From: a virus
Length of the DNA stretch: 64,000 bases
Direction: 5' to 3' (one strand)
IMG/VR virus record: IMGVR_UViG_3300044904_000056
Location: 40,041 to 104,040 of that record
This document shows positions 1-58,164 of the stretch, one piece after another. A program made the translations under genes and the position numbers. Positions within the stretch are counted from its first letter, which is position 1; every line of letters starts with the position of its first letter. The notes under the pieces are model-generated. The model was given only the letters and a program-made list of their open reading frames with translations, was not told where the DNA came from and ran no database searches.

Positions 1-624
1 TACAACTTCCTGGAGAGTCCGCTTGTCCTTGACTACAATCTGTTCAAATTTCTCCCTGCTGATAGCGTGTTTCGGCGGATAGGCAATCCGCTTCGCTGTC
101 TTCAGCACCTCTAGGAACTGCTTGTAGTTAGCCTCTGTTTTGTTGCGCAGGTACCACGCTGGGTGGAAGGATATGACATACTGCCAAGGCCCTCCGTTCA
201 CGACGTTCCCGTGAAGCTTTAGGACTCCAGTTTTGTTGAGAACACTGCGGAGAGGAGAGGCTCCAAGGAGGATGACTACTTTCGGACGGAGCGAATGTAT
301 TTCACGAAGCAGATGGGGCCGACAGTGATTAATAGCGTAGGCTGGTAGTTTGTTCCCTGGCGGACGGCACCTAGCCGCATTGGTGAAGCGGCATTTCTTC
401 GGGTCAATCCCAACTTCCTCGATAGCTTCCCGGAGAACAAGGCCTGCTTCTCCACACCAAGGGTAGCCATTCTCATCCTCGTGCTCACCAGGCGCTTCCC
501 CGACAAACAGGAATACCGGCTCCTCACTGCCCTCCCCATTCATCTGTGGGGATTTGCAGCCCTTATAGAGCTGGCAAGGCTTGCAAAATCTATCAGGTTG
601 TCGGAGAACGTTGAGACTAAGCAT
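1..624 (-). CDS. Family 4 uracil-DNA glycosylase, probably N-terminal part of a glycosylase-DNA polymerase fusion (partial)
   Basis: The frame is open from an ATG at 624 to the left edge, giving 208 residues with no stop. Residues 42-50 (GEAPGEHED) and 154-160 (HPAWYLR) match the two active-site motifs of 4Fe-4S uracil-DNA glycosylases. Cys14, Cys17, Cys86 and Cys101 fit the cluster ligands. A family 4 enzyme normally ends near residue 175-200. Here the chain continues with a segment (about 186-208) resembling the entry into a DNA-polymerase-I 3'-5' exonuclease domain, so a fusion to PolA is inferred and lies mostly outside the window. The enzyme would remove uracil from DNA. Its start overlaps the stop of the next gene upstream (TAATG). 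The glycosylase call is solid; the fusion is an inference. Confidence 0.85.
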   Translation of the reverse strand, partial: MLSLNVLRQPDRFCKPCQLYKGCKSPQMNGEGSEEPVFLFVGEAPGEHEDENGYPWCGEAGLVLREAIEEVGIDPKKCRFTNAARCRPPGNKLPAYAINHCRPHLLREIHSLRPKVVILLGASPLRSVLNKTGVLKLHGNVVNGGPWQYVISFHPAWYLRNKTEANYKQFLEVLKTAKRIAYPPKHAISREKFEQIVVKDKRTLQEVV

Positions 625-917
625 TATTTTGACTTAGACTTTGTTCGCTTAACTTCCTGCAAGCCTAGATGGAACCCGATGCAGGTCAACAGCTTGAAAA
701 GTTCAACTTGAGCCTTCGCAGCCTCTTTCTCGTTCTCAGAACCTGCTTCTGTTATTAGAAAGTCCGTAGCCATCATACCAATCTTCGGGTTGAGGCCGAC
801 TTTCCTGAAAACAGAATCCCAGTCCTTTGGCCACCGCTTGTCCTTCCTTGCTGCCTTCAGCAGGACATCGCAGCGATTCCAGAATTGTTTCTGCTTGTAC
901 TCTTCAAAACGGCTCAT
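624..917 (-). CDS. Small hypothetical protein, 97 residues
   Basis: I do not recognise a family. The protein is charged, starts with a basic/aromatic helix-like segment, has a Trp-rich stretch around residues 14-34 and ends in a Lys/Ser-rich tail (TKSKSK). It has no signal peptide or membrane segment. It overlaps the downstream glycosylase start by one base and the upstream gene by an ATGA, so it is probably translated by coupling. The position points to DNA metabolism, but no function can be assigned. Confidence 0.7.
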   Translation of the reverse strand: MSRFEEYKQKQFWNRCDVLLKAARKDKRWPKDWDSVFRKVGLNPKIGMMATDFLITEAGSENEKEAAKAQVELFKLLTCIGFHLGLQEVKRTKSKSK

Positions 918-1303
918 TGCGCTTTCTCCTTCAACTCCTTGATACGGTCCATCGCGTCTTCTAGCTCAACTACGGTTGTATAGCAGAGCATAAGACAGAC
1001 AACCTCCTTTTCCGCAGCAGCCAAACCATTCTGGACACTAAATATCTCTAGCTGCTGTGCCCAGCGATATTTGGGAAGAGGGAGAACTCCATCCCGGATA
1101 GACTCGATAAGCTTCTGAAGATAGTGCATTGCTTTATCGAGGTCCTGTAGTCCGTTTTTCTTACGCCAACGCGTCACATATTTCGTGACCTGCCCCTCGA
1201 AATATCCTAGATGGTTATGGGCTGCTAAGTCCCAGTGCTGAAATTTCGCCTGGTAGTGCTCTCCGCCCACCTGGTAGTCATTCGCCTTCTTGTCAGATTC
1301 CAA
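914..1303 (-). CDS. DUF3310-family phage protein
   Basis: The core GGEHYQ...QHWDL...GYFEGQVTKYVTRW...LQDLDKAMHYLQKLIE is the signature of DUF3310, a family common in tailed phages and sometimes annotated as nucleotide kinase without proof. I place the start at TTG 1303, because GGAGG lies 6 bases upstream and the family match begins directly after it. A longer reading from 1495 would only add residues encoded antiphase to the neighbouring gene. The resulting 129-residue protein has a C-terminal helical extension rich in Glu and Lys. It overlaps the upstream gene by 11 bases and its stop overlaps the next start (ATGA). Confidence 0.8.
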   Translation of the reverse strand: MESDKKANDYQVGGEHYQAKFQHWDLAAHNHLGYFEGQVTKYVTRWRKKNGLQDLDKAMHYLQKLIESIRDGVLPLPKYRWAQQLEIFSVQNGLAAAEKEVVCLMLCYTTVVELEDAMDRIKELKEKAQ

Positions 1304-1667
1304 TTTGTGCCTCCTTGGGAATGTCCTCCAAACGCGCCAGACCAACATCCCAGTGGTCCGCGTGATTCTCTTTAGCCAGACGTTCTGCTTCATTCCGAGC
1401 AGGCGTATGACTGGTAGCCTTGATAAATTTCGTATCCCAATCCCTGCGACCGTTGAAGTAGAGCTTGACTTCATACCAGTCTTCCTGAACAACAATCGGC
1501 AGGATAATCCGGTGCTCTGCCGGCTTCGTCATCACCTTCGGAAAGAAGTACCTCTTGCGAAACTCGTGAGGCTTAGGATGGAATCGCGTTGTCCGCTTCT
1601 CTGGGGCTTTCCTGGCCCGGACCTTCTTTGTCTTCCGTGTTGGTCCTGCCTTTTTCTTTTGCGTCAT
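1293..1667 (-). CDS. Hypothetical basic protein, 124 residues
   Basis: The N-terminal 30 residues are very Lys/Arg-rich (TQKKKAGPTRKTKKVRARK), like a nucleic-acid-binding tail. Residues about 55-110 look like a compact alpha/beta domain. No family is recognised. The ATG at 1667 has GAGG eight bases upstream. The first 95 bases overlap the 3' end of the thymidylate-synthase-like gene in another frame, a longer overlap than elsewhere in the window. One of the two termini may therefore be shorter than annotated. Confidence 0.6.
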   Translation of the reverse strand: MTQKKKAGPTRKTKKVRARKAPEKRTTRFHPKPHEFRKRYFFPKVMTKPAEHRIILPIVVQEDWYEVKLYFNGRRDWDTKFIKATSHTPARNEAERLAKENHADHWDVGLARLEDIPKEAQIGI

Positions 1668-2760
1668 CGAGTAGCCTCACACAGGTGGAGTAGACTTCTT
1701 TCGATATTCCATACGTGCACTGCTCGTAATAGTTCAAAGCCAATTCCATAAACGGGGAGGGAAGGTGCAGAATTTCACTAGCGACCCACTCCGCCCTATA
1801 CTGCCAACCTGGCTCTTTCACCCAGCGGAAAATAGTAAGCATTTGGGGAATGGTTTTTATCCAGTACCCATCTGGAGGGGGAGGCCATGTCGGATTTGGA
1901 AGCTCTCTTGGTTTGTCCGTCTTGAAAGCCCTAATCTTCTCTACTTTGAGGAGGACGTGTTGAAACTCTTCGTCAGTAACTGTAGAGAATCCTGGTACGC
2001 ATTCGGCCTTAACACTTGCTTGATTCATCACCTCTGATTCATCAAAGGCTCTTTCGAGGATATTCCCTAGAGTCGGCTTGTAGAGTTCTTCATAATAGTG
2101 GAGATTTTGAATAATGTACGTCAGCTTCCCTATCTTCGCCCCCAGACAACCCGCTATATAGGCATGAATATGGGAGAACTGAACCGCGTTGTACGGCGCT
2201 CCCCAAATGAGGTCGCAACTCCGCTGCACTACAGTCTGGTCTAGAATCCCGTTTCTCAGCCGTAGATATATGACATTGTTGCACGGGTAGTCATTTGACT
2301 TCAGAAGATTGTCCCGCTCCGGGTCCCAAAGGCTGATAACTGCTTGTCTTGATAGAGGCTCCCGCTTTAGCTTGTCGATGGCAATGCTAATTTGGTCTAC
2401 AGTTAGATATCCTCCAATTGCTGAAGGCCAGCGTCTCATCCGCAGCCCGTAGGCCCCATTGAAATCCTGCTGATTACCATCCGCAAACTTCCTCATGTTC
2501 TTGTTAAAGTAACATATCCACTCGACATTCCCGCTGCCTGAGAGAATCCAGATTACTTCAGCAAGGGCGAAGAATGGATTGAAGTTGCGTCCAGGAATCA
2601 CCATCCAGCAATATCCTGGCAGCTCATAGTTCAAACAGACAGGTTCTTCTAGCTCTAAGCAAGGACCATGGCGGGTGGGAATCTCCTTCCCATGATTTGC
2701 TATTTCGCGGACCAGAGCGAAGTAGAAGTCGCCAAGACCACGGCCTGAATAAGTTTTCAC
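1573..2760 (-). CDS. Thymidylate synthase homologue, probable dUMP 5-hydroxymethylase
   Basis: The fold is recognisable from the catalytic Cys160 (YPC), the phosphate-binding QRSCD at 179-183 and Asn191 (GAPYN), which in thymidylate synthases reads the uracil ring. The retained Asn points to dUMP, not dCMP, as substrate. The segment matching the Trp-containing loop of dTMP-forming enzymes (E. coli Trp80) reads NMRKFADG at 88-95 and lacks that Trp, as in hydroxymethylases. The likely product is 5-hydroxymethyl-dUMP. The GTG start at 2760 is preceded by GAGGAGG and by the GCGTTCTAT element. The C-terminal 35 residues are charged and overlap the next gene. A plain dTMP synthase cannot be excluded. 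Confidence 0.8.
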   Translation of the reverse strand: MKTYSGRGLGDFYFALVREIANHGKEIPTRHGPCLELEEPVCLNYELPGYCWMVIPGRNFNPFFALAEVIWILSGSGNVEWICYFNKNMRKFADGNQQDFNGAYGLRMRRWPSAIGGYLTVDQISIAIDKLKREPLSRQAVISLWDPERDNLLKSNDYPCNNVIYLRLRNGILDQTVVQRSCDLIWGAPYNAVQFSHIHAYIAGCLGAKIGKLTYIIQNLHYYEELYKPTLGNILERAFDESEVMNQASVKAECVPGFSTVTDEEFQHVLLKVEKIRAFKTDKPRELPNPTWPPPPDGYWIKTIPQMLTIFRWVKEPGWQYRAEWVASEILHLPSPFMELALNYYEQCTYGISKEVYSTCVRLLDDAKEKGRTNTEDKEGPGQESPREADNAIPS

Positions 2761-2776: not shown

Positions 2777-3646
2777 CTAGATAGAACGCTCCCCTCTAGG
2801 AAAACGTAAGTTGCCTTGGAACCCGTTGTAGAGAGAGCGAGGCCTGCCTTCTCCCAGACGTACCCGCTCATACTTGTCCCACTCACAAAGTGCATTCTGC
2901 AAATCCTGCGCATGTATGTCCGGCATTCCTGCTTGAAAAATTTTCGGGCTGATTTTGTCGTAGAGTTCGTCTAGGCATTCCTTCCAATCCGCTTCCTTCC
3001 ACTTAGCCCTCTTATCCCGCCCTATTACACGATTCAACCCTCGTTTGCTCCCAGGGCCAGAGATAGCCCAAGTTGACCAATCCTTTGCGTGCCGAAGCGT
3101 AGCATACTTCACATCAGCAATGACCTGCCCTGTCATAAAGCTTCCCATATCTTTCTGGTCGTGCAGCCTGTCGTAGAATTCCGCAAGCGTATCGCCATCT
3201 CTCGGGCGGATTTCTTTTCTTGCTCCCCACATCGGTGTCAGGACTTGCTTGGCTAGGTATCGGGCTTTCGATTGATGATCTGGACCTGCGTGAATCATAT
3301 ATGCTCCGGTGAAGACTTTCTCGCCGTCTTTCTTTCGCTGCTCCAATACTCTGATGAACTCGTCTGGGTGCCAAGGAACAGGATAACCTAGCTCATCTAG
3401 GGTCTCCGGCCAATTGACAAAACGTGAAACCGTCATAGCGAACCAGAGGTCCTTATCTTCCGCGTGAGGCTCCCGCCAATGCTCCCGTACCCAAATCGTG
3501 ACCGTGTCTAATTCCCGGAACACGTTGCAGAACCGATAGCGCTGAAGTATTGGGTCCCGTGTCCATGGTCGAGGCTTGCCAGCTTGCTTCCGCTTGTAGA
3601 TTGCGTGGCGTTCAAGGATGAAGCGAAGGAGAGGATTGATGTTCAT
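2777..3646 (-). CDS. Alpha-glutamyl/putrescinyl-thymine pyrophosphorylase superfamily protein
   Basis: The N-terminal pattern (ERHAIYKRK near 12-20, PWT at 27-29, DPIL, then YRFCNVFRELD at 37-47) matches the helical, glycosylase-like domain family found in thymine-hypermodifying phages. That family is annotated as aGPT-pyrophosphorylase clade 3 or as the helical domain of 5-hmdU DNA kinases. In characterised systems the enzyme displaces pyrophosphate from 5-(pyrophosphoryloxymethyl)uracil in DNA with an amine or amino acid. The 289-residue length fits a stand-alone protein. It sits directly before the TS homologue, ends 16 bases before its start, and its start overlaps the stop of the zinc-ribbon gene (TGATG). 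The C-terminus carries an RFPR tetrapeptide at 281-284. The precise clade is uncertain. Confidence 0.75.
   Translation of the reverse strand: MNINPLLRFILERHAIYKRKQAGKPRPWTRDPILQRYRFCNVFRELDTVTIWVREHWREPHAEDKDLWFAMTVSRFVNWPETLDELGYPVPWHPDEFIRVLEQRKKDGEKVFTGAYMIHAGPDHQSKARYLAKQVLTPMWGARKEIRPRDGDTLAEFYDRLHDQKDMGSFMTGQVIADVKYATLRHAKDWSTWAISGPGSKRGLNRVIGRDKRAKWKEADWKECLDELYDKISPKIFQAGMPDIHAQDLQNALCEWDKYERVRLGEGRPRSLYNGFQGNLRFPRGERSI
2781..2789 (-). promoter_or_regulatory. GCGTTCTAT element, copy 1
   Basis: GCGTTCTAT on the minus strand ends 20 bases before the GTG start of the thymidylate-synthase homologue, with AGGTGAGGAGG between. It overlaps the last codons of the upstream pyrophosphorylase-family gene. 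Spacing equals that at 11600 and 21416. Confidence 0.5.
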
Positions 3647-3999
3647 CAGTTGCCTCTCCTTTGATTTTGATACAGACGTAGCCGTTCAGCCATATTCATC
3701 AGCTCGTTCGCCAGCTCTTCATCGCGGTAGGTGTAGTAACACTGAGTGTTGGACTTCTCTGCCATAGCTTCAAGATTGCTGATGATTTCGTCCAGGTCAA
3801 CTCGGGGGCCACGGTGCTTCTTGCCGGCTTTCTTCTTATCTCGGCAGGATTTGCAGCGTTTTGGCATTTGGAATTCGGGATTTGTTGCCTGAAGACTTTT
3901 GTAGAAGCTTATCTCGCTCTCGTACATCCCCCAGTCCTCGTGGCAGTCTACGCATTGCCCCATCGAAACAAATGCTCCTCGATCTTTATCATCCCCCAT
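3646..3999 (-). CDS. Zinc-ribbon protein (zf-trcl-like)
   Basis: Cys16-x2-Cys19 and Cys49-x2-Cys52 bracket an aromatic/acidic segment (YESEISFYKSL). This layout and the following CRDKKK resemble the small 'probable zinc-ribbon' family (Pfam zf-trcl). The 65-residue C-terminal extension is helical with an Asp/Glu-rich stretch and no recognised domain. It probably binds a nucleic acid or a protein partner. The gene is coupled to the pyrophosphorylase-family gene by a one-base overlap. Confidence 0.7.
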   Translation of the reverse strand: MGDDKDRGAFVSMGQCVDCHEDWGMYESEISFYKSLQATNPEFQMPKRCKSCRDKKKAGKKHRGPRVDLDEIISNLEAMAEKSNTQCYYTYRDEELANELMNMAERLRLYQNQRRGN

Positions 4000-4358
4000 T
4001 TTCTCTTCCTTTCCGCTTTCTCCACTCTACCCAACGTCTCTTCGTAGCTTTACCAATTTTTAGAAGAGCCTGCTTAGTATGCTTGTATCCTTTGCTATTT
4101 TGATTCCCAAATCCGAAATGTTTGCCCGCAGCATTTTTATTCCCTAATTTGGAGAGGCTCATCTTTTTACGGCTCATAGGAGAAAGTTTTCGCCCTAAAC
4201 AGTATTGATTTCCTGTATGAAGTTTGATTAGTCTGCGGCGGTGTTCTGCAGACAATTTCTTTCCCTTCCTGTTATGATTCCCCGCCCCAATCTTATTACC
4301 CATCAATCTTATTACCCATCATCCTTCTTCTCATCTTCTTTCGAGTAGTCGCAGACAT
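3989..4358 (-). pseudogene. NUMOD3-repeat homing-endonuclease remnant, frameshifted by a 16-bp duplication
   Basis: From ATG 4303 the frame encodes 104 residues that are almost entirely NUMOD3-type DNA-binding repeats (GNQYCLGRKLS, GNKNAAGKHF and similar). No HNH, GIY-YIG or EDxHD nuclease domain is present. A second short frame from ATG 4358 (20 codons, stop at 4296-4298) encodes the first half of another NUMOD3 motif (TTRKKMRRRMMGNKI). The two frames are separated only by an exact 16-bp tandem duplication at 4288-4319. Removing one copy would join them. The element lies between the kinase and the zinc-ribbon gene and overlaps the latter by 11 bases. It is best read as a decayed mobile gene, though the 104-residue product could still be made. 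Confidence 0.7.
4288..4319. repeat. Exact 16-bp tandem duplication
   Basis: Two identical 16-base units (4288-4303 and 4304-4319, CAATCTTATTACCCAT on the plus strand) lie head to tail. Sixteen is not a multiple of three, so the duplication shifts the NUMOD3 frame and creates an early stop. Confidence 0.95.
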
Positions 4359-4359
4359 T

Positions 4360-4983
4360 TTAATACCCAAGGAACCATCCCCACAACCAAGCTAGAATAG
4401 TTTGTAATCCATCCTGATAAGGGATAACTCTGACATCTGCCCCTACTTCTCTGAGTCTCTTCTCACTACCTAATACGGCCTTGTATTTTGGATAGAGGGA
4501 TTTGTCCGGGTCAACTGGCCGAGGGTCCTTCCGCTGAATCCTGCGCTTTACCATCCGCTGAAGGCACTTCTCTAAGGGGGTATCCATAAAGCCAAATATC
4601 CAATGCGTATGCGGTAGGCTTCTTGCCAGGTCAATCCAACGCTGGGTCAGGGTAGCAGCCAGCGCTCCCTCGAAAACAACATTCCCCCGCCTGGAAAGGT
4701 CTGTGATTGCCTTGGAAGCGTAATCGGCACGGGTGCTGCCCCTGTAATAGCTTTCGTCAATCGCGTCATAGCCGCCCGTTGTTATCCGGTAAGGCCCAAG
4801 CAGGGCTGTCTTCGTAGGCCCTGTATCGAGGACGTAGGCGAGCACCTTTCCATTCCCAGGGTTAATCAGAGGCGTATTGGAAAAGCTCTCTAGAAGGGAT
4901 TTTGCTAGGGTTGTCTTGCCACTGGCATTCGTGCCCCTGATGTTGATGACGATATGCTTCAGCCGAGGAAATCGTTCCGTCAT
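4360..4983 (-). CDS. P-loop kinase, probable 5-hydroxymethyl-dU DNA kinase
   Basis: The Walker A motif GTNASGKTT is at residues 17-25. The rest of the 207 residues has the compact layout of the kinases that phosphorylate 5-hydroxymethyluracil in DNA of thymine-hypermodified phages. An acidic FEGA segment follows the mid region and basic lid residues (KRRIQRKDPRP) lie near 148-158. The assignment rests mainly on context: TS homologue and pyrophosphorylase-family genes lie within 1.6 kb. It could be a generic deoxynucleoside-type kinase. An RFPR tetrapeptide occupies residues 4-7, before the first beta strand. The start overlaps the phosphatase-fold gene by ATGA. Confidence 0.7.
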   Translation of the reverse strand: MTERFPRLKHIVINIRGTNASGKTTLAKSLLESFSNTPLINPGNGKVLAYVLDTGPTKTALLGPYRITTGGYDAIDESYYRGSTRADYASKAITDLSRRGNVVFEGALAATLTQRWIDLARSLPHTHWIFGFMDTPLEKCLQRMVKRRIQRKDPRPVDPDKSLYPKYKAVLGSEKRLREVGADVRVIPYQDGLQTILAWLWGWFLGY

Positions 4984-9085: not shown

Positions 9086-10264
9086 CTACGCTGCTGCCTT
9101 GCAAGCCTTCCCGAAGATTTTGAGCTTGGCCCCGAGATGAGACACGTCACCCGTGAACAGAAACTTCCCGGCAATCTTCGCCTCTTGCCAGTCCGACTTC
9201 TTGAGCCCCAGCTTCTCCAGCTTGGTCTTCGGATAGAGATAGACGCGAAAGCCTTCGTCCTTGTCCGGGCGGATGAATCGTGCCCAAGGCCCACCAGGAT
9301 ACTTGACATAAAGCTCCCCGCTGCTCTTGGTCTCAACCTCCGCACCCAGCGCCTCTGCCTTGCTAGACACTAGGATGTCCTTCACCGCACTGGAGAGCTT
9401 ACCACTCTTGGAAGACTTCTGCTTCTTTTCCTTGTGATGGTGATGCTTGTGTTCCTTTTTGGACACTTCCTTGTCCTCCTCTTTCTCGTGCTTCTTTTCT
9501 TCCCTGGGATGGTGATGCTTATGACCCTTCTCCTTCTTTCTCTTGTCTCCCTCCTCTTCCCTATTAGCTTTCAGAACTGCGATACAATTCTTGGACTCAA
9601 CGCAACGCTGGCACTCTGGCACATCCGGGTCGGGGTATTTCCCGAAGCAATCTTCAATTCCGGAGGGAATCGGTATGGACGGTGCCCGGGGTTTATACGT
9701 TGCCGGGTCAATCTGTACGAGGGGGGAGCCTTTCGACTCCCCCCTCTCGCTGCTGTCGTCCGAGGCATCCTCAGAGCTATCATCCTTCTTTTCTGAAGAA
9801 TCGTCCTTCTCTTTCCCGTGGTGCTTCTTGCTACCCTTCCTGCCCTTCGGAGGCTCTGGCTCCTCAGAGCTGTCGTCCTTCTTGTCGGAGGCATCAGAGG
9901 CGTCACTAGCATCGCTCTTGTCCGATGCGTCGCTAGCATCCGAGGCATCACTGGCATCTGAAGCATCAGAGGCGTCAGAAGCGTCACTGGCGTCAGAAGC
10001 TTCAGAGGAGCTATCGTCCTTCTTGTCGGATGCGTCGGAAGCATCCGATGCGTCGCTAGCGTCCGAAGAATCTGGAGCTTCAGAACTGTCGTCTGGCTCC
10101 TTCTTCTTCGTTGAGGACTTCTTGGGAGACTTCTTTGAGGACTTTGGAGTTTCTTCCTCAGAGCTGTCGTCAGACTTGTCCGGCTCCTCTTCCGAGGAAT
10201 CGTCAGCAGCCTTCCCTGGTTTTGCCTTGTGCTTTTTCTTCTTGTCTACTTTCTTTTCGGCCAT
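9086..10264 (-). CDS. Asp-Ala-Ser repeat protein with Cys4 motif and C-terminal folded domain
   Basis: No known family is recognised for the whole 392-residue protein. Residues 1-60 are Lys/Asp/Ser-rich. Residues 66-130 are mostly tandem Asp-Ala-Ser triplets broken by KKDDSS, and more DDSSE blocks follow to 175. Cys206, Cys218, Cys221 and Cys227 form a zinc-type motif (CFGKYPDPDVPEC...). Two His/Lys clusters (248-252, 272-276) follow, and residues about 290-392 look like a compact alpha/beta domain. The start ATG has GGAGG seven bases upstream and abuts the sigma-like gene's stop. The acidic serine-rich region resembles phosphorylated or DNA-mimicking disordered proteins, but that role is conjecture. 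Confidence 0.75.
   Translation of the reverse strand: MAEKKVDKKKKHKAKPGKAADDSSEEEPDKSDDSSEEETPKSSKKSPKKSSTKKKEPDDSSEAPDSSDASDASDASDASDKKDDSSSEASDASDASDASDASDASDASDASDASDKSDASDASDASDKKDDSSEEPEPPKGRKGSKKHHGKEKDDSSEKKDDSSEDASDDSSERGESKGSPLVQIDPATYKPRAPSIPIPSGIEDCFGKYPDPDVPECQRCVESKNCIAVLKANREEEGDKRKKEKGHKHHHPREEKKHEKEEDKEVSKKEHKHHHHKEKKQKSSKSGKLSSAVKDILVSSKAEALGAEVETKSSGELYVKYPGGPWARFIRPDKDEGFRVYLYPKTKLEKLGLKKSDWQEAKIAGKFLFTGDVSHLGAKLKIFGKACKAAA
9875..10069. repeat. 9-bp tandem codon repeats encoding (Asp-Ala-Ser)n
   Basis: About twenty near-consecutive 9-base units encode DAS triplets. Third positions vary (GAT/GAC, GCA/GCG/GCT/GCC, TCN/AGC), so the repeat has been kept at protein level and is not a recent slippage product. 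Confidence 0.9.
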
Positions 10265-13799: not shown

Positions 13800-14192
13800 T
13801 CACTTCTGAATCTTCCGTTGAACTTCCCTCAGACGGGCCTTCGTCCAGTTCCGAGCAGCCGGATGGAGCATGTATATTGGTTTGCGTAGTGGTACATAGC
13901 CACATTCCTTGAAAGTTTTCTGTGCTACCCTACCACACACTAGTATAATGTCTGGGTCAAGCCTAATCAGATTTTCCGCAAGCCAATCCGGATCGGGTTT
14001 GCCGTGATGTTTGGCCTTAGTGACTAATTCCCGACAGACATTAGTCAACAACAGCCGTTCTTTATTCTGTTCGCCCACCAGCTTGTAGAGCCTACGGCCA
14101 GAAGCGTTCAGGGGGTTGATCTTGAAGTAGCGAGGAGCACGGCCAGTTCGATAGCCCCACATCGTTTCGAGGACTGCTACGATTGGCCCCAT
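13800..14192 (-). CDS. Uracil-DNA glycosylase-superfamily-like protein
   Basis: LLLTNVCREL (about 47-56), LDPDIILVCGRVAQKTF (79-95) and LHPAARNWTK (109-118) follow the order of the central strand, the 'gk.A' helix and the HPAxxxW loop seen in UDG-fold proteins. The N-terminal water-activating motif of family 4 enzymes is missing, so base excision activity is uncertain. It is short at 130 residues. It lies two bases after the FtsK-type gene. With the glycosylase at the left edge, the window contains two proteins of this fold. Confidence 0.6.
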   Translation of the reverse strand: MGPIVAVLETMWGYRTGRAPRYFKINPLNASGRRLYKLVGEQNKERLLLTNVCRELVTKAKHHGKPDPDWLAENLIRLDPDIILVCGRVAQKTFKECGYVPLRKPIYMLHPAARNWTKARLREVQRKIQK

Positions 14193-40988: not shown

Positions 40989-41002
40989 TCACCTAAATTT
41001 AC
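40989..41002 (-). promoter_or_regulatory. GTAAMTTTAGGTGA leader motif, copy 2
   Basis: GTAAATTTAGGTGA on the minus strand overlaps the stop codon of the endonuclease gene and supplies the ribosome site of the membrane protein gene that starts at 40980. Confidence 0.5.
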
Positions 41003-41712
41003 TTTTCCAGGAGGCTGATAACTTTGTCAGCAACGACCTTCGGATTGTGCTTTACGTCCCGTTCCTTGAAGTGGACAACCCGGTAGCCGAGCTTTCGGAG
41101 ATCACGGTCTCTTTTACGGTCTCTAGCTTTGTTTCGATGCCAATAGGAACCATCTACTTCAATTAGCAACTTAGATTTTGGGATCAAAAAATCAGGAAAA
41201 TATGGCCCAACCCAAACTTGAAATCTGTACTTGATTTTGAGCCCTTTCAGAATCTCTATCATTCGCTGTTCGAGGCCATTCGGATGTTTTGATACACTAG
41301 AAAATACCTTTGGAAGAAACTTCCTTCTTGCAGCTATCATCTTTTCACTACGTTTCAATCCTCTGCTTATTGCTCGCCCCCAAGCTTTTGAATGTTTTCT
41401 TCCCTTACGGGTCTTACTCATCTTCTCTTTTGTTTCTTGGGTACAGACCTGGCCCATATGCGCCAGGCTAAGATTTTCACAATGTTTTTTAGAAAGCTTC
41501 TTGCCTTTATTCCACGCTTTAATTTTTCCTTGTCTCTTAAGCTTGCGAAATGTAGCTCTCAACTTCTTTGTCATTTTTGCAATTTTAGGGTCAGTTTCAG
41601 CAGTTTTTCCTTTGTTCCAGGGAGGGAAATCGTTACCATTCTCCCTTCGAACAGCCCAACCCTTGATAGCATACAAACTTCTCTGATCCGAAGACCAATC
41701 TTCAAAAGACAT
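40999..41712 (-). CDS. EDxHD/Vsr-like homing endonuclease with NUMOD3 repeats
   Basis: Residues about 30-145 hold NUMOD3-like DNA-binding repeats (WNKGKTAE, WNKGKKLSKKHCENLS, ETKEKMSKTRKG). The C-terminal nuclease core contains GLEQRMIEIL, PYFPDFLIP, LLIEVDGSYWH and LRKLGYRVVHF, matching the very-short-patch/DUF559 fold used by I-Bth0305I-type enzymes. It is free-standing and lies at the junction of the tail module and the glycan island. Confidence 0.85.
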   Translation of the reverse strand: MSFEDWSSDQRSLYAIKGWAVRRENGNDFPPWNKGKTAETDPKIAKMTKKLRATFRKLKRQGKIKAWNKGKKLSKKHCENLSLAHMGQVCTQETKEKMSKTRKGRKHSKAWGRAISRGLKRSEKMIAARRKFLPKVFSSVSKHPNGLEQRMIEILKGLKIKYRFQVWVGPYFPDFLIPKSKLLIEVDGSYWHRNKARDRKRDRDLRKLGYRVVHFKERDVKHNPKVVADKVISLLEK

Positions 41713-41715
41713 ATC

Positions 41716-42867
41716 TTAGCTCAGGATTTCCATAATTTTTGAAGCAACTACTCGGGGGCTCAACTGTTCTAAACAAGGAGAAAATTTCGACCCGTTTATA
41801 GATTTGCATTGGCAAGTATCTATAAAACATGCGCTTGTGCAGCACTCCTTGCCGTCTGGTAGAAGCCCTTTCACTGATTCAACCCGGAGTCCGTGAGCGC
41901 TGGGAAAGTGCCACAAAAACGGCTGCGGCTCATGGGGGCCATACGTAACCACACAGGGTTTCCCTCTTGCTGCACGAGGGTACAGAAGCCCCGTGTCTGA
42001 ACTGCAGTGCAAATCAGCTTCGATGATGACGGCTGCTGAATGGCGTATCCTGAAGACTCCCGAACAATCTTCAACATTCGCACCCCGCCAAGGCTCTCTC
42101 CGGTTTGAATCAAGGATAAGCCATAGGTAGTTTTTCGGGCATAGGCGGATGACTTCCTTCCAATGTGGGTAGTTTTTGTATGGAGTGCTCGCATACGGGA
42201 GCAGGGTAATAACCTTACGCCCTTTGTCCTTGAGGGGCTTGAGGAACTTCCGCGCTGTTTCCATCTCGTGCTCAAACGGATAGTAATAAATCGTGTTCTT
42301 TTCAGGAGGTGGGTCAATGAACGCGTGCATGCAGTACATATCCAGCGCAATCATCCGGTAGCGGGAAATGACAGAGGTAGAAGCCTGATTCACAAAGTCC
42401 AGCTCGTCTGTAGTCAGGGATTTCGGGTCCTTCGCTAGAAGGCTGACAAGAAATTCGTTGAGATGGGGCTTCGTGCGAAGGTGGATTTTGTAGTTGTACC
42501 CCCCCTTCAAGGGGACATCGTAGTCGAGCCAGCACCAGTCTTCCTTGAAGGTGTCACCGATTTCTTCCATACTGCTATACTCCATATAGTGATAGACCTT
42601 TTCGATATCAGGATTATTCTCTAGGATTTCAGGGCAAGTGCAAATGTAATGAATCTTACAAGTAGGGAATTTCTTCTTAATTTCATGTACGGCTGCTGTT
42701 GAATACAGGATGTCCCCAATTCCCCACGTGTGCTTGATAACAAGTCGCCTTCCGGACAGATTAGTTTCCCTACGAAGAGGTTCCCTCCTGCGCAATCGCT
42801 CTTGATATTCCTCCCAGGAAAATTCCTTCACGCGCTGCCCATATTCATTAATCAGAATGCGTGGCAT
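41716..42867 (-). CDS. GT9-type glycosyltransferase
   Basis: VIKHTWGIGDILYSTAAVHEIKKKFP is the classic N-terminal signature of ADP-heptose-type GT9 enzymes. VITLLPYASTPYKNYPHWKEVI and the IEADLHCSSDTGLLYPRAARGKP segment form the donor site. A Cys-rich C-terminal part follows (CCTSACFIDTCQCKS), as in heptosyltransferases. It begins the glycan island. It overlaps the upstream endonuclease by 20 bases. Confidence 0.85.
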   Translation of the reverse strand: MPRILINEYGQRVKEFSWEEYQERLRRREPLRRETNLSGRRLVIKHTWGIGDILYSTAAVHEIKKKFPTCKIHYICTCPEILENNPDIEKVYHYMEYSSMEEIGDTFKEDWCWLDYDVPLKGGYNYKIHLRTKPHLNEFLVSLLAKDPKSLTTDELDFVNQASTSVISRYRMIALDMYCMHAFIDPPPEKNTIYYYPFEHEMETARKFLKPLKDKGRKVITLLPYASTPYKNYPHWKEVIRLCPKNYLWLILDSNRREPWRGANVEDCSGVFRIRHSAAVIIEADLHCSSDTGLLYPRAARGKPCVVTYGPHEPQPFLWHFPSAHGLRVESVKGLLPDGKECCTSACFIDTCQCKSINGSKFSPCLEQLSPRVVASKIMEILS

Positions 42868-43336
42868 GTATAGTAGTCCTTCCTTTCTTCACATTTTTCC
42901 AACGAATTGATTGTGCTTTTCTCATCTTGCAGCGTGCTGTCTTGGTGTGTTTATGGCCTAGGAAATTCTGGTTGCCTTTCATTCCTTCGCTTAACCTGCG
43001 CCGATGATCCTCGGTGAATTTGTACCCGAGACAATTATGGTTACCTTTCAGGGCCCTACTCTTGGCTTCGCTGTTTGTCAGCCTTCTCGGGAACCTAGCA
43101 ATTCTAGGAATCCCTAGATAGTGAATAGCCCTTTGCAACAATTCAAGACTATCACAAAAGGAACCAAGCCCCATATTACATCTGATACAAAGAACTCCTC
43201 TAAATGCTCCTGTTCTATGGTTATGGTCTAGCTGAGGCCGGTCTGGGGGCTTATCCCCACAGACAGCACAGCAGCCTTCTTGAAGTTTTAGAAAATCCTT
43301 TTTCAACTCTTGGTTTTGATTAGAGTTGTATGCCAT
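42848..43336 (-). CDS. Endonuclease VII-like HNH homing endonuclease with NUMOD3 repeats
   Basis: Cys-x2-Cys near 23-26, LDHNHRTGAFRGVLCIRCNMGLG (36-58, written here as a motif with His38, His40, Cys50, Cys53, Asn54) is the zinc and catalytic core of the T4 endonuclease VII fold. Two NUMOD3 repeats follow (GNHNCLGYKFTEDHRRRLSE, GNQNFLGHKHTKTARCKMRK). RFPR is at 81-84 in the linker. It sits between two glycosyltransferase genes and overlaps both. Confidence 0.9.
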   Translation of the reverse strand: MAYNSNQNQELKKDFLKLQEGCCAVCGDKPPDRPQLDHNHRTGAFRGVLCIRCNMGLGSFCDSLELLQRAIHYLGIPRIARFPRRLTNSEAKSRALKGNHNCLGYKFTEDHRRRLSEGMKGNQNFLGHKHTKTARCKMRKAQSIRWKNVKKGRTTIHATHSD

Positions 43337-44237: not shown

Positions 44238-44951
44238 TCAGTTTCTCCCCTTACGCAAAATCCGCCGCTTCATACGAGCTTTACTAATTTTGCGACGGGT
44301 TTCAGCAGAGCGAACAGCACCAAGCGCATACTTGTTGCCTTTTGCGGCTTCACTTCTCTTGCGGCGGGTTTCAGCAGAGAGATTTTCTCGTTTACTAGCT
44401 TCGCTTATCTTGCGGCGAGTCTCCTTGGAGAACTTTCTGCCTTTTTGGGCCTCTCTAATCTTTCTGAGACCTTCTTCAGTGTGCTTGTAGCCAAGCGAAT
44501 TCTTGTTCCCTTTTTGGGATTTGCTCATCTTGAGGCGGGTTTCTTTAGAAGCTCTTTTACCTTTGTTTGCCTCACTCAACTTACGGCGGTGCTCTTTAGA
44601 TTTTTTCTTGCCTTTCATTGTTTCGCTGAGCTTGTGTCGTGTTTCAGGAGAAGGGTTGCAAAGACCCCTCCCACCAGCTGTGAGATTGTATCCGTAGCGA
44701 GGACTGTTAGACTTGTACATTTGAATATATAGCGTTTCTCGTTGATTCAATTCCTCTTCTGTAACAGCGTCAGGATAGAGAACCCAAACATCAAATTTTT
44801 CAGGACCGTGTTTCTGAATTGCGCTGTATAGATATGGAGCGTTGCCATGCCCCAATATGTGCTGTTTCCAGCGCCCATCCACAGTCTGCATAGTCTTTCC
44901 GATGTAGACCTTGTTATTGATGCGGTTGCGAATTTGGTAGATGGTGTTCAT
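44238..44951 (-). CDS. GIY-YIG homing endonuclease with NUMOD3 repeats
   Basis: The N-terminal 90 residues hold the GIY-YIG fold (TIYQIRNRINNKVYIGKT, GRWKQH, then the catalytic Glu in ELNQRETLYIQMY). Six or more NUMOD3 repeats follow (for example SPETRHKLSETMKGKK, SKETRLKMSKSQKG). It is inserted between the two paralogous GT9-like genes and ends one base before the next start. Confidence 0.9.
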   Translation of the reverse strand: MNTIYQIRNRINNKVYIGKTMQTVDGRWKQHILGHGNAPYLYSAIQKHGPEKFDVWVLYPDAVTEEELNQRETLYIQMYKSNSPRYGYNLTAGGRGLCNPSPETRHKLSETMKGKKKSKEHRRKLSEANKGKRASKETRLKMSKSQKGNKNSLGYKHTEEGLRKIREAQKGRKFSKETRRKISEASKRENLSAETRRKRSEAAKGNKYALGAVRSAETRRKISKARMKRRILRKGRN

Positions 44952-56479: not shown

Positions 56480-57430
56480 AGAATCACTCCCTCCAGACGG
56501 ATTGATGTTGCTGTACTGCTCTTCGTTGACTTGACCCGGTCCCTTACCTGATATTGAGCTGGCCGCATGCAAGACCTTCGATGCTTCAAAGGCTGCTTGT
56601 TTCAGTTCATCAGGGGAATCGGAGTTGTAAGCCGAAACGAGAGAGTCAGCAACTTCCTTTGCCTTCTCGGGACTCAGGATACCAGCTTCTCTCGTTCGCC
56701 TTTTCATTTCACCTAAAGTTACCTTCCGCCCTCTGCGGCTTTCAAGCATAGCATCAAACTTGCCACGAGCCGCAGGTTCAGTTACCACATCAGCGGAATC
56801 AACCCGCTGAAACTCTTCGACATAGTTGACTTGCTCACCGCCCATGTTCGCAGGGCGAGTCTTGCCAATAGCGTTAATCGAGATGCCGAACAGGCCCTTC
56901 GCGGTAGGCTCATTGAGAATCGTATCAATCATATCAGTGAGCCACTTCGCTGAAGGGAAGAAATGAAGCTTGCCCCTAAGCCTTACTTTGCCTGTTGTTG
57001 GGTTGGCGTCCGTAAAGCAGTCGCTGTACCAGCCAACCAACGCACGCATTGTCCGTTCTGGGAGGGTCTTCTCGGAGATAGCATCCGGGTGATCACAGAA
57101 AGCCTTGGCCCCGTTGAATACTTGGACACCTGCTTTGAGGGCTTCGGCGCTGTAAAGATTGCGATCTTTACTATTTCCTAACCCCTCCTCTATAATAGTA
57201 ACTAAGTAAACTCTTCCCTTTTGTTGAGTACCACTTTTCTGCTTTTGGGCGTCCTCTTCACCTTTTTCCGTAAAGGCATCCTGGTGAAAAGATTCTCGAA
57301 TTCGAGAAGCCAAAAGTTTCCTCTTCTTTTTCTTTCTACCAGAAGCGACAAGATGTTTCCCCGTAGACAGGGGAAATTTTTGAACTCCTGCCCGTTGCAA
57401 CTGCCCCGTAGATGAAGAGGAATTGCTCAC
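55208..57430 (-). CDS. Prohead protease fused to scaffold protein
   Basis: Residues about 70-230 form the protease: NRNLYSAEALKAG-type start, the catalytic His in AFCDHPDA, and the Ser in GLFGISINAIG, with EEFQRVDSADVVTEPA following. The remaining 500 residues are scaffold-like, with very acidic low-complexity blocks (EDEGLEGLEDEDEG, 400-440) and a C-terminal coiled-coil/helical part (about 590-690). An internal ATG at 56479 with GGAGGGA eight bases upstream could make a separate scaffold. The stop of the homing endonuclease overlaps the start. Confidence 0.85.
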   Translation of the reverse strand: MSNSSSSTGQLQRAGVQKFPLSTGKHLVASGRKKKKRKLLASRIRESFHQDAFTEKGEEDAQKQKSGTQQKGRVYLVTIIEEGLGNSKDRNLYSAEALKAGVQVFNGAKAFCDHPDAISEKTLPERTMRALVGWYSDCFTDANPTTGKVRLRGKLHFFPSAKWLTDMIDTILNEPTAKGLFGISINAIGKTRPANMGGEQVNYVEEFQRVDSADVVTEPAARGKFDAMLESRRGRKVTLGEMKRRTREAGILSPEKAKEVADSLVSAYNSDSPDELKQAAFEASKVLHAASSISGKGPGQVNEEQYSNINPSGGSDSMNKQKVRASSGSGGLRFRKKKALRAAAGKGADNEDLGEPEPSDIPDELEEADVEDEETRSDLGDQTEFGGGGKHRKVKASRGSRESLEDEGLEGLEDEDEGLEDEGMEDEDEDEDGMGAMPPGGGPSGPAAAVPPTPGSSRSVPASAAEADDSSEDEGMDGDDSEEDLSESLEALEDEDEHDMMRPGNVAESGRNRRHRSRGREADGSSQGPQVKKASFAGGLGHSGHSALPKGADPDRGYEDSDEDFGTEDDSTSGVGKSYKIKTSRFARNRRARKFAKPIVREANRRIEKLEGFIARLRESNRAKDRKIVRYKGIMRFNESVKSANQLTSLAVEKEILTLGAARTLRESLYGLNRKEQVHEIKMAARLLESATEGAIARLSESVDGAGARGGVVSWRPTGAENSELLDGLASDGIPVKEDE
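56709..56722 (-). promoter_or_regulatory. GTAAMTTTAGGTGA leader motif, copy 3 (inside a gene)
   Basis: GTAACTTTAGGTGA followed by AATGAAA lies within the protease/scaffold coding sequence, at the end of the protease domain. The same extended 20-base context recurs at 59339, so it may be a recombination relic or an internal initiation signal. Confidence 0.35.
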
Positions 57431-58164
57431 GCAGCCTTCCTAATGAGGGGGAATACAACTTTGCAAGTTTCGCTGATCCTCTGGCGATGCTCTTTTGAGA
57501 GGTGTCTCCCTTTCAAGGCTTTGCTGATTTTGAGACGGGTTTCTTTTGAGGGAACATAGCCTAAGAGATTCTGATTAGGCCGCCCATACATTCGACTCCG
57601 TTCCTGAGGGGTCAATTTCGACAAGAACCTGCTATGGGACTTCCGCATCTTCTGCTTAGCTTCTTTAGTCCTCTTCAGCCCATAATGGGGGCTATCCTCC
57701 CCCACCCAATCTCTCACCCGCTCCCTCATCAACCTGCTTAGTTTTTTCCGGGCTGCTTTAGACATATTTGATGCGTAGGAATTCCCCCGATGTATTTCTC
57801 TCAACCTTCGGAGACCGTCTTTTGTCATCACGTGGGGCTTTCTCATCTTCTCTAGAACAGCCTCGGAAGGATTTGCGAGTCCATCCCCACCTTCTGTAAG
57901 ATTGTAGCCAAATCGGGGGTCAGTAGTGTTGTAGATTCGGATATACAACTTTTCCCGGTCATTCAATTCAGATTCGGAATCAGATTCGTACAAAATGCAG
58001 CATTCAAAATTCCCAGGACCATATTTCTTGATGGCCCTTTTCAAGTAAAGAGTAGAGTTATACCCTGCCATATGTTCCCGCAGGCGAACAGACAAAAGCC
58101 TTACCGTCTTGCCAACATAAAATTTTCCGTTGGTAATGTTCCGAATTAGGTAGATGCTTCCCAT
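57427..58164 (-). CDS. GIY-YIG homing endonuclease with NUMOD3 repeats
   Basis: SIYLIRNITNGKFYVGKT, the Arg in SVRLREH and the catalytic Glu in ELNDREKLYIRIY mark the GIY-YIG domain (1-90). NUMOD3-like repeats fill the rest (AVLEKMRKP, KTRLKISKALKGRH and similar). It is inserted directly upstream of the protease gene, with stop and start overlapping. It is paralogous to the enzyme at 44238. Confidence 0.9.
   Translation of the reverse strand: MGSIYLIRNITNGKFYVGKTVRLLSVRLREHMAGYNSTLYLKRAIKKYGPGNFECCILYESDSESELNDREKLYIRIYNTTDPRFGYNLTEGGDGLANPSEAVLEKMRKPHVMTKDGLRRLREIHRGNSYASNMSKAARKKLSRLMRERVRDWVGEDSPHYGLKRTKEAKQKMRKSHSRFLSKLTPQERSRMYGRPNQNLLGYVPSKETRLKISKALKGRHLSKEHRQRISETCKVVFPLIRKAA

Follow-up and report, generated by a model that had tools for sequence, protein, structure and literature searches.

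The question raised by this locus is whether a uracil-DNA glycosylase (UDG) and a DNA polymerase are joined in one chain in a phage that would also make hydroxymethyl-uracil (hmdU), and whether the two features belong together. The stretch analysed (the window, 64,000 nucleotides) comprises bases 40041-104040 of a 104,040-bp IMG/VR virus record, which also supplies the sequence to the left of the window. The minus-strand frame at 1-624 begins with an ATG at 622-624, runs without a stop to the window edge and, in its window-encoded N-terminal part, matches UDG (Pfam PF03167, E 1.2e-28, residues 30-176); a sequence-only reading had proposed that this UDG is fused to the N-terminus of a DNA polymerase. 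Followed leftwards, the frame ends with a stop codon at genome 37998-38000 and encodes 888 aa, and a Pfam search of the full protein returned the UDG domain (PF03167, residues 30-175, E 1.8e-27), a 3'-5' exonuclease (PF01612, residues 197-398, E 4.5e-6) and a family A DNA polymerase (PF00476 DNA_pol_A, residues 486-866, E 5.4e-64), which bears out the proposed fusion; the outcome that would have refuted it, an early stop just beyond the left window edge and no polymerase domain, did not occur. The parts lying in the window are the following.

1-624, minus strand: first 208 residues of the 888-aa UDG / 3'-5' exonuclease / family A DNA polymerase (remainder at genome 37998-40040, outside the window)
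100-537, minus strand: UDG domain, residues 30-175, family-4-like by sequence (PF03167, 1.8e-27; matches to solved structures)
1-36, minus strand: first residues (197-208) of the 3'-5' exonuclease domain, which spans 197-398 (PF01612, 4.5e-6)

The entire 888-aa protein is also encoded on a second contig (L023, 100% identity in the best segment), and its domains recur in relatives at 50-56% identity, so the arrangement is due neither to chance nor to an assembly joint, and an assembly or window-edge artefact was ruled out.

By its sequence, the polymerase-borne UDG is family-4-like. The best solved matches of the domain were TM0511 (1l9g/1vk2), 4zbx and Tth UDG (1ui0), with match E values of 1e-25 to TM0511 and 3e-23 to Thermus UDGa. 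According to PMC5387724, the pocket of Tth UDGa has been set by mutation at E41, G42, E47, F54, N80, N89 and H155, N80 reads N3/O4 of uracil, and uracil is the sole substrate base of family 4 UDGa. Equivalents of all seven residues named there are present in the window protein (E43, A44, E49, W56, N82, N91 and H154), five of them identical and two substituted (A44 for G42 and W56 for F54). The F54Y variant of Tth UDGa retains most of its activity, and no report of a Trp at this site was found in the available part of the same source (PMC5387724). The residues and motifs concerned lie at the following positions, the counts over 61 fused frames referring to frames selected by motif 1 only; in these, the residue at position 56 is aromatic in 60/61.

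475-501, minus strand: motif 1 GEAPGEHED, residues 42-50 (E43, A44 and E49 correspond to Tth E41, G42 and E47)
379-381, minus strand: N82, equivalent to Tth N80 (Asn in 60/61 fused frames)
145-165, minus strand: motif 2 HPAWYLR, residues 154-160 (H154 corresponds to Tth H155; His in 59/61 fused frames)
583-585, minus strand: predicted Fe-S ligand C14 (invariant in 12/12 fused UDGs)
574-576, minus strand: predicted Fe-S ligand C17 (invariant in 12/12 fused UDGs)
367-369, minus strand: predicted Fe-S ligand C86 (invariant in 12/12 fused UDGs)
322-324, minus strand: predicted Fe-S ligand C101 (invariant in 12/12 fused UDGs)

Both motifs agree with the family 4 patterns GE(A/G)PGxxED and HPxxxxR, and the pocket residues, with an aromatic at the F54 site, and the four Fe-S cysteines are likewise those expected of family 4. 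A cross-linking UDG of the UdgX type, defined by the motif GEQPG and the R-loop KRRIH (PMC10359453), was ruled out, as the window protein has GEAPG instead of GEQPG and CRPPGNKLP after C86, with no KRRIH.

The remainder of the chain has the residues of a proofreading family A DNA polymerase: the exonuclease residues D220, E222, D293, Y378 and D382 and the palm aspartates D631 and D816 were invariant in the alignment (A2). An AlphaFold2 model of the 888-aa protein had a mean pLDDT of 90.4 and a pTM of 0.85, and in a structure search with this model residues 190-880 aligned with Klenow-type polymerases (Z about 35). Several viral structure matches spanned the whole length, the best with a TM of 0.78 versus about 0.6 for Klenow. 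No UDG chain was among the matches listed in the PDB structure searches, all of which cover residues 190-880 only.

The genes upstream of the polymerase bear on the second part of the question.

914-1495, minus strand: DUF3310 protein, in a conserved block between the dUMP hydroxymethylase and the polymerase (PF11753, 5.9e-7; same place in L190)
1573-2760, minus strand: dUMP hydroxymethylase-like protein, thymidylate synthase superfamily (PF00303, 1.7e-28)
2777-3646, minus strand: HMUDK_hel, 5-hmdU DNA kinase helical domain (PF18723, 3.9e-47)
4360-4983, minus strand: probable 5-hmdU DNA kinase, P-loop (PF18748, 3.1e-6; 27.3 bits, cut-off 27)

The protein at 1573-2760 is 32% identical over 268 aa to the dUMP hydroxymethylase gp29 of SPO1 and resembles it in kind, with a related fold of the thymidylate synthase superfamily and, in the alignment, an Asn at the base-reading site, where Serbin/P744-type proteins have Asp; we take Asn versus Asp at this site to separate dUMP from dCMP. 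Together with HMUDK_hel and the hmdU-kinase-like protein, this homology supports the premise that the phage makes hmdU or a derivative of it. The order HMUDK_hel, dUMP hydroxymethylase, UDG-polymerase is kept in four relatives (G052, G100, G096 and G109) with polymerases 43-56% identical to that of the window, and in G052 and G100 the similarity extends to the RecA and 5' nuclease genes that come after the block.

The fusion proved to be widespread. When 50,697 phage records were searched by tblastn with the UDG part, 74 matched, many carrying the annotation DNA polymerase, and Pfam confirmed the UDG-exo-PolA architecture in SPO1, LysYB1, Serbin and phiLo. A motif scan of IMG/VR, which picks up intact motif 1 only and by which decayed domains cannot be counted, yielded 119 usable loci: 61 with the UDG fused to polymerase or exonuclease sequence, 48 without and 10 cut off. 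Thirty-five of the 61 fused frames exceed 700 aa; some of the shorter ones may be split polymerases, an example of such an arrangement being Rhizobium phage TM39, in which the polymerase gene comes after a UDG-bearing gene of 623 aa. Moreover, an N-terminal UDG, a 3'-5' exonuclease and a family A polymerase were described in 2020 for gp205 of phage PaBG and its group (PMC7412058). The architecture is thus already known and general among phages, which makes the fusion as such unremarkable, and the expectation that it would be notable in its own right was not confirmed.

We consider it probable that this gene encodes the phage's replicative DNA polymerase, a Klenow-like, proofreading family A enzyme whose 5' nuclease is a separate nearby gene, and that its N-terminal domain is an active, uracil-only glycosylase of the family 4 type. 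The fusion recurs among phages in general, and its coexistence with the predicted hmdU synthesis here would be secondary. The glycosylase would remove uracil, arising from dUTP misincorporation or cytosine deamination, from the DNA handled by the polymerase, so that repair would start close to the replication machinery; given the restriction of family 4 enzymes to uracil, it should leave thymine and 5-substituted uracils, hmdU among them, untouched. Activity is supported by the presence of all seven Tth residue equivalents, by the intact catalytic set in the clade and by the conservation of N82, the aromatic at 56 and H154 in nearly all of the 61 fused frames. In its favour, too, no trimeric dUTPase (PF00692) was found in the record, although, the record being possibly incomplete, this absence counts for little. 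Counting against this explanation, an abasic site would block the polymerase wherever uracil was excised from template that it had yet to copy.

An architectural or processivity role is the strongest rival, to which we give limited credence: the UDG domain would be mainly a DNA-holding module of the polymerase, like vaccinia D4, with uracil excision secondary. In line with such a role, the vaccinia UDG is both a repair enzyme and a processivity factor (PMC10253040), and the whole-length viral structure matches described above point in the same direction. Parts of the catalytic set have been lost in SPO1, LysYB1, Serbin, P744, Lebethron, Shrew, Bacchae and the T5-like PSTCR5, and the fold is kept after loss of the active site, so that, judging from these sequences, it would have a non-catalytic use in SPO1, LysYB1, the Serbin/P744/Lebethron group and Shrew at least, and in part in PSTCR5. 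In the polymerase of the latter, a Providencia phage, an N-terminal extension (L022 1809-2240) aligns over 71 columns with the latter half of the UDG profile (hhalign 91%, E 9e-7), which suggests a decayed UDG domain. A tree of the exonuclease-polymerase part requires at least three changes between the intact and the decayed state; as its intact rows were mostly chosen by motif and its decayed rows come mostly from isolates, the nesting of the two states can be compared and their frequencies cannot. However, the window protein falls into a clade of five members, all intact (support 100/100), relatives at 50-56% identity retain the catalytic set and the Fe-S residues, and across the clade and nearly all motif-selected fusions the residues of uracil chemistry persist in proteins whose overall identity is 20-56%, which is more than a purely structural role would require and favours an active glycosylase. 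In the thymine-hypermodified Bacillus phage SP-15, the free-standing UDG (L019 3953-4531) carries Ser in place of N80 and Ile in place of N89 and looks as if its specificity or activity had been changed.

Quite unlikely, in our judgement, is that the UDG is a dedicated part of thymine modification, removing dU that has escaped hydroxymethylation, sparing hmdU and leaving only modified or modifiable pyrimidines opposite A. This would fit the dUMP hydroxymethylase and HMUDK_hel genes, which immediately precede the UDG-polymerase in this record and in the four relatives, three of which have an intact catalytic set (the fourth, G109, lies outside the residue table). Yet the fusion is not enriched with HMUDK_hel, which occurs in 4/49 records with a fused UDG versus 2/46 with a UDG not seen fused (Fisher p 0.68), most fused polymerases being in records without it; thymidylate synthase superfamily genes occur in 5/49 versus 2/46, and as many records are fragments, the absence of a gene from them is weak evidence. 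The UDG is, moreover, decayed in SPO1, the classical hmdU phage. A fusion specific to hmdU phages is therefore unsupported. The suggestion of the sequence-only reading that such a polymerase could exclude dU and spare hmdU agrees with the residues, given the intact pocket (including E49, equivalent to E47) and the restriction of family 4 enzymes to uracil stated in PMC5387724; it does not stand as a trait particular to hmdU phages. Very improbable is that the domain is vestigial here: inactive remnants do occur in other lineages, but this protein and its relatives retain every known catalytic and Fe-S residue, as the preferred reading of an active glycosylase would have it.

A second protein of the UDG superfamily is encoded at 13800-14192 on the minus strand (130 aa, PF03167 5e-8, without motif 1); it had no PHROG and no match in the phage collection. 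Its family comprises 23 IMG/VR loci, in four of which (L165, L173, L175 and L177) the small gene either separates HMUDK_hel and dUMP hydroxymethylase or adjoins them. HMUDK_hel was present in 10/22 virus records with the small protein versus 6/95 motif-selected UDG records (p 3e-5, or 2e-5 without shared records, relatedness being ignored in both). A structure prediction from four sequences was of low confidence (pLDDT 45.7) and plays no part here. On these sequence grounds the small protein is a candidate for a new component of hmdU hypermodification. In a wider scheme, which we regard as unlikely, the clade would have a single base-identity system, in which the polymerase UDG removes dU and not hmdU during replication and the small UDG-fold protein acts during modification, binding or processing hmdU or one of its derivatives.

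Minus-strand frames of the record contain 17 copies of the peptide RFPR, compared with 0-3 for any one of its permutations; the peptide is found in 15/132 minus-strand ORFs of the record and 1/44 ORFs of the virion block. Its carriers are unrelated proteins of replication and metabolism, and it often lies near a terminus (minus strand, for example near 2806, 4974, 5594, 6788, 15381, 22085, 24246 and 24675); a RecA-like protein left of the window also contains it. The codons used are varied, which indicates a motif at the protein level, and RFPR is enriched in the relatives of the clade as well, whereas 1.05 Mb of control loci contain it no more often than expected by chance. It could, for example, serve as a docking or targeting tag. 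Elsewhere in the window, the 392-aa product of 9086-10264 (minus strand) combines a long S/D-rich repeat (SDASDASD) with a stretch rich in His and Lys, and the minus-strand segments 3989-4306, 40999-41712, 42848-43336, 44238-44951 and 57427-58164 appear homing-endonuclease-like by eye, with repeated short motifs.

A polymerase with its own uracil remover would couple synthesis and base quality control in one chain, and uracil-rejecting polymerases are of practical interest. As intact (hmdU-type clade) and decayed (SPO1) versions exist in one polymerase family, chemistry and DNA holding can be tested directly against each other. The gain is modest, since the architecture has already been described; the small UDG-fold family tied to hmdU genes and the RFPR peptide look newer than the fusion.

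Compared with known systems, the window UDG has active-site residues in common with the family 4 enzymes Thermotoga TM0511 and Thermus UDGa, which are free-standing, whereas it is fused to a polymerase and has W at the F54 position. Vaccinia D4 is likewise a UDG belonging to a viral replicative polymerase complex (PMC10253040), but it is a separate subunit bridged by A20, and both its UDG family and the polymerase family differ from those of the window. The polymerase of Thermus phage phiLo (PDB 9QHS), on which no paper was found among the literature searched, is a solved single-chain UDG-exo-PolA with UDG catalytic residues mostly retained; it is distant from the window protein, forming a long branch in the tree, and the construct starts at phiLo residue 34 and thus is without the two N-terminal Fe-S cysteines. 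Domain order and functional reading are the same in the polymerases of PaBG (gp205) and the Lupandier group, jumbo phages that are likened to the window protein here by their published description (PMC7412058). The same order of UDG, 3'-5' exonuclease and PolA in one frame is found in SPO1 gp31 (PF03167, 3.4e-22), close upstream of which lies a dUMP hydroxymethylase gene, as in the window; however, the SPO1 UDG is without the Fe-S cysteines and has Ser for the N80-equivalent Asn and Met for the stacking aromatic, whereas the window UDG is intact.
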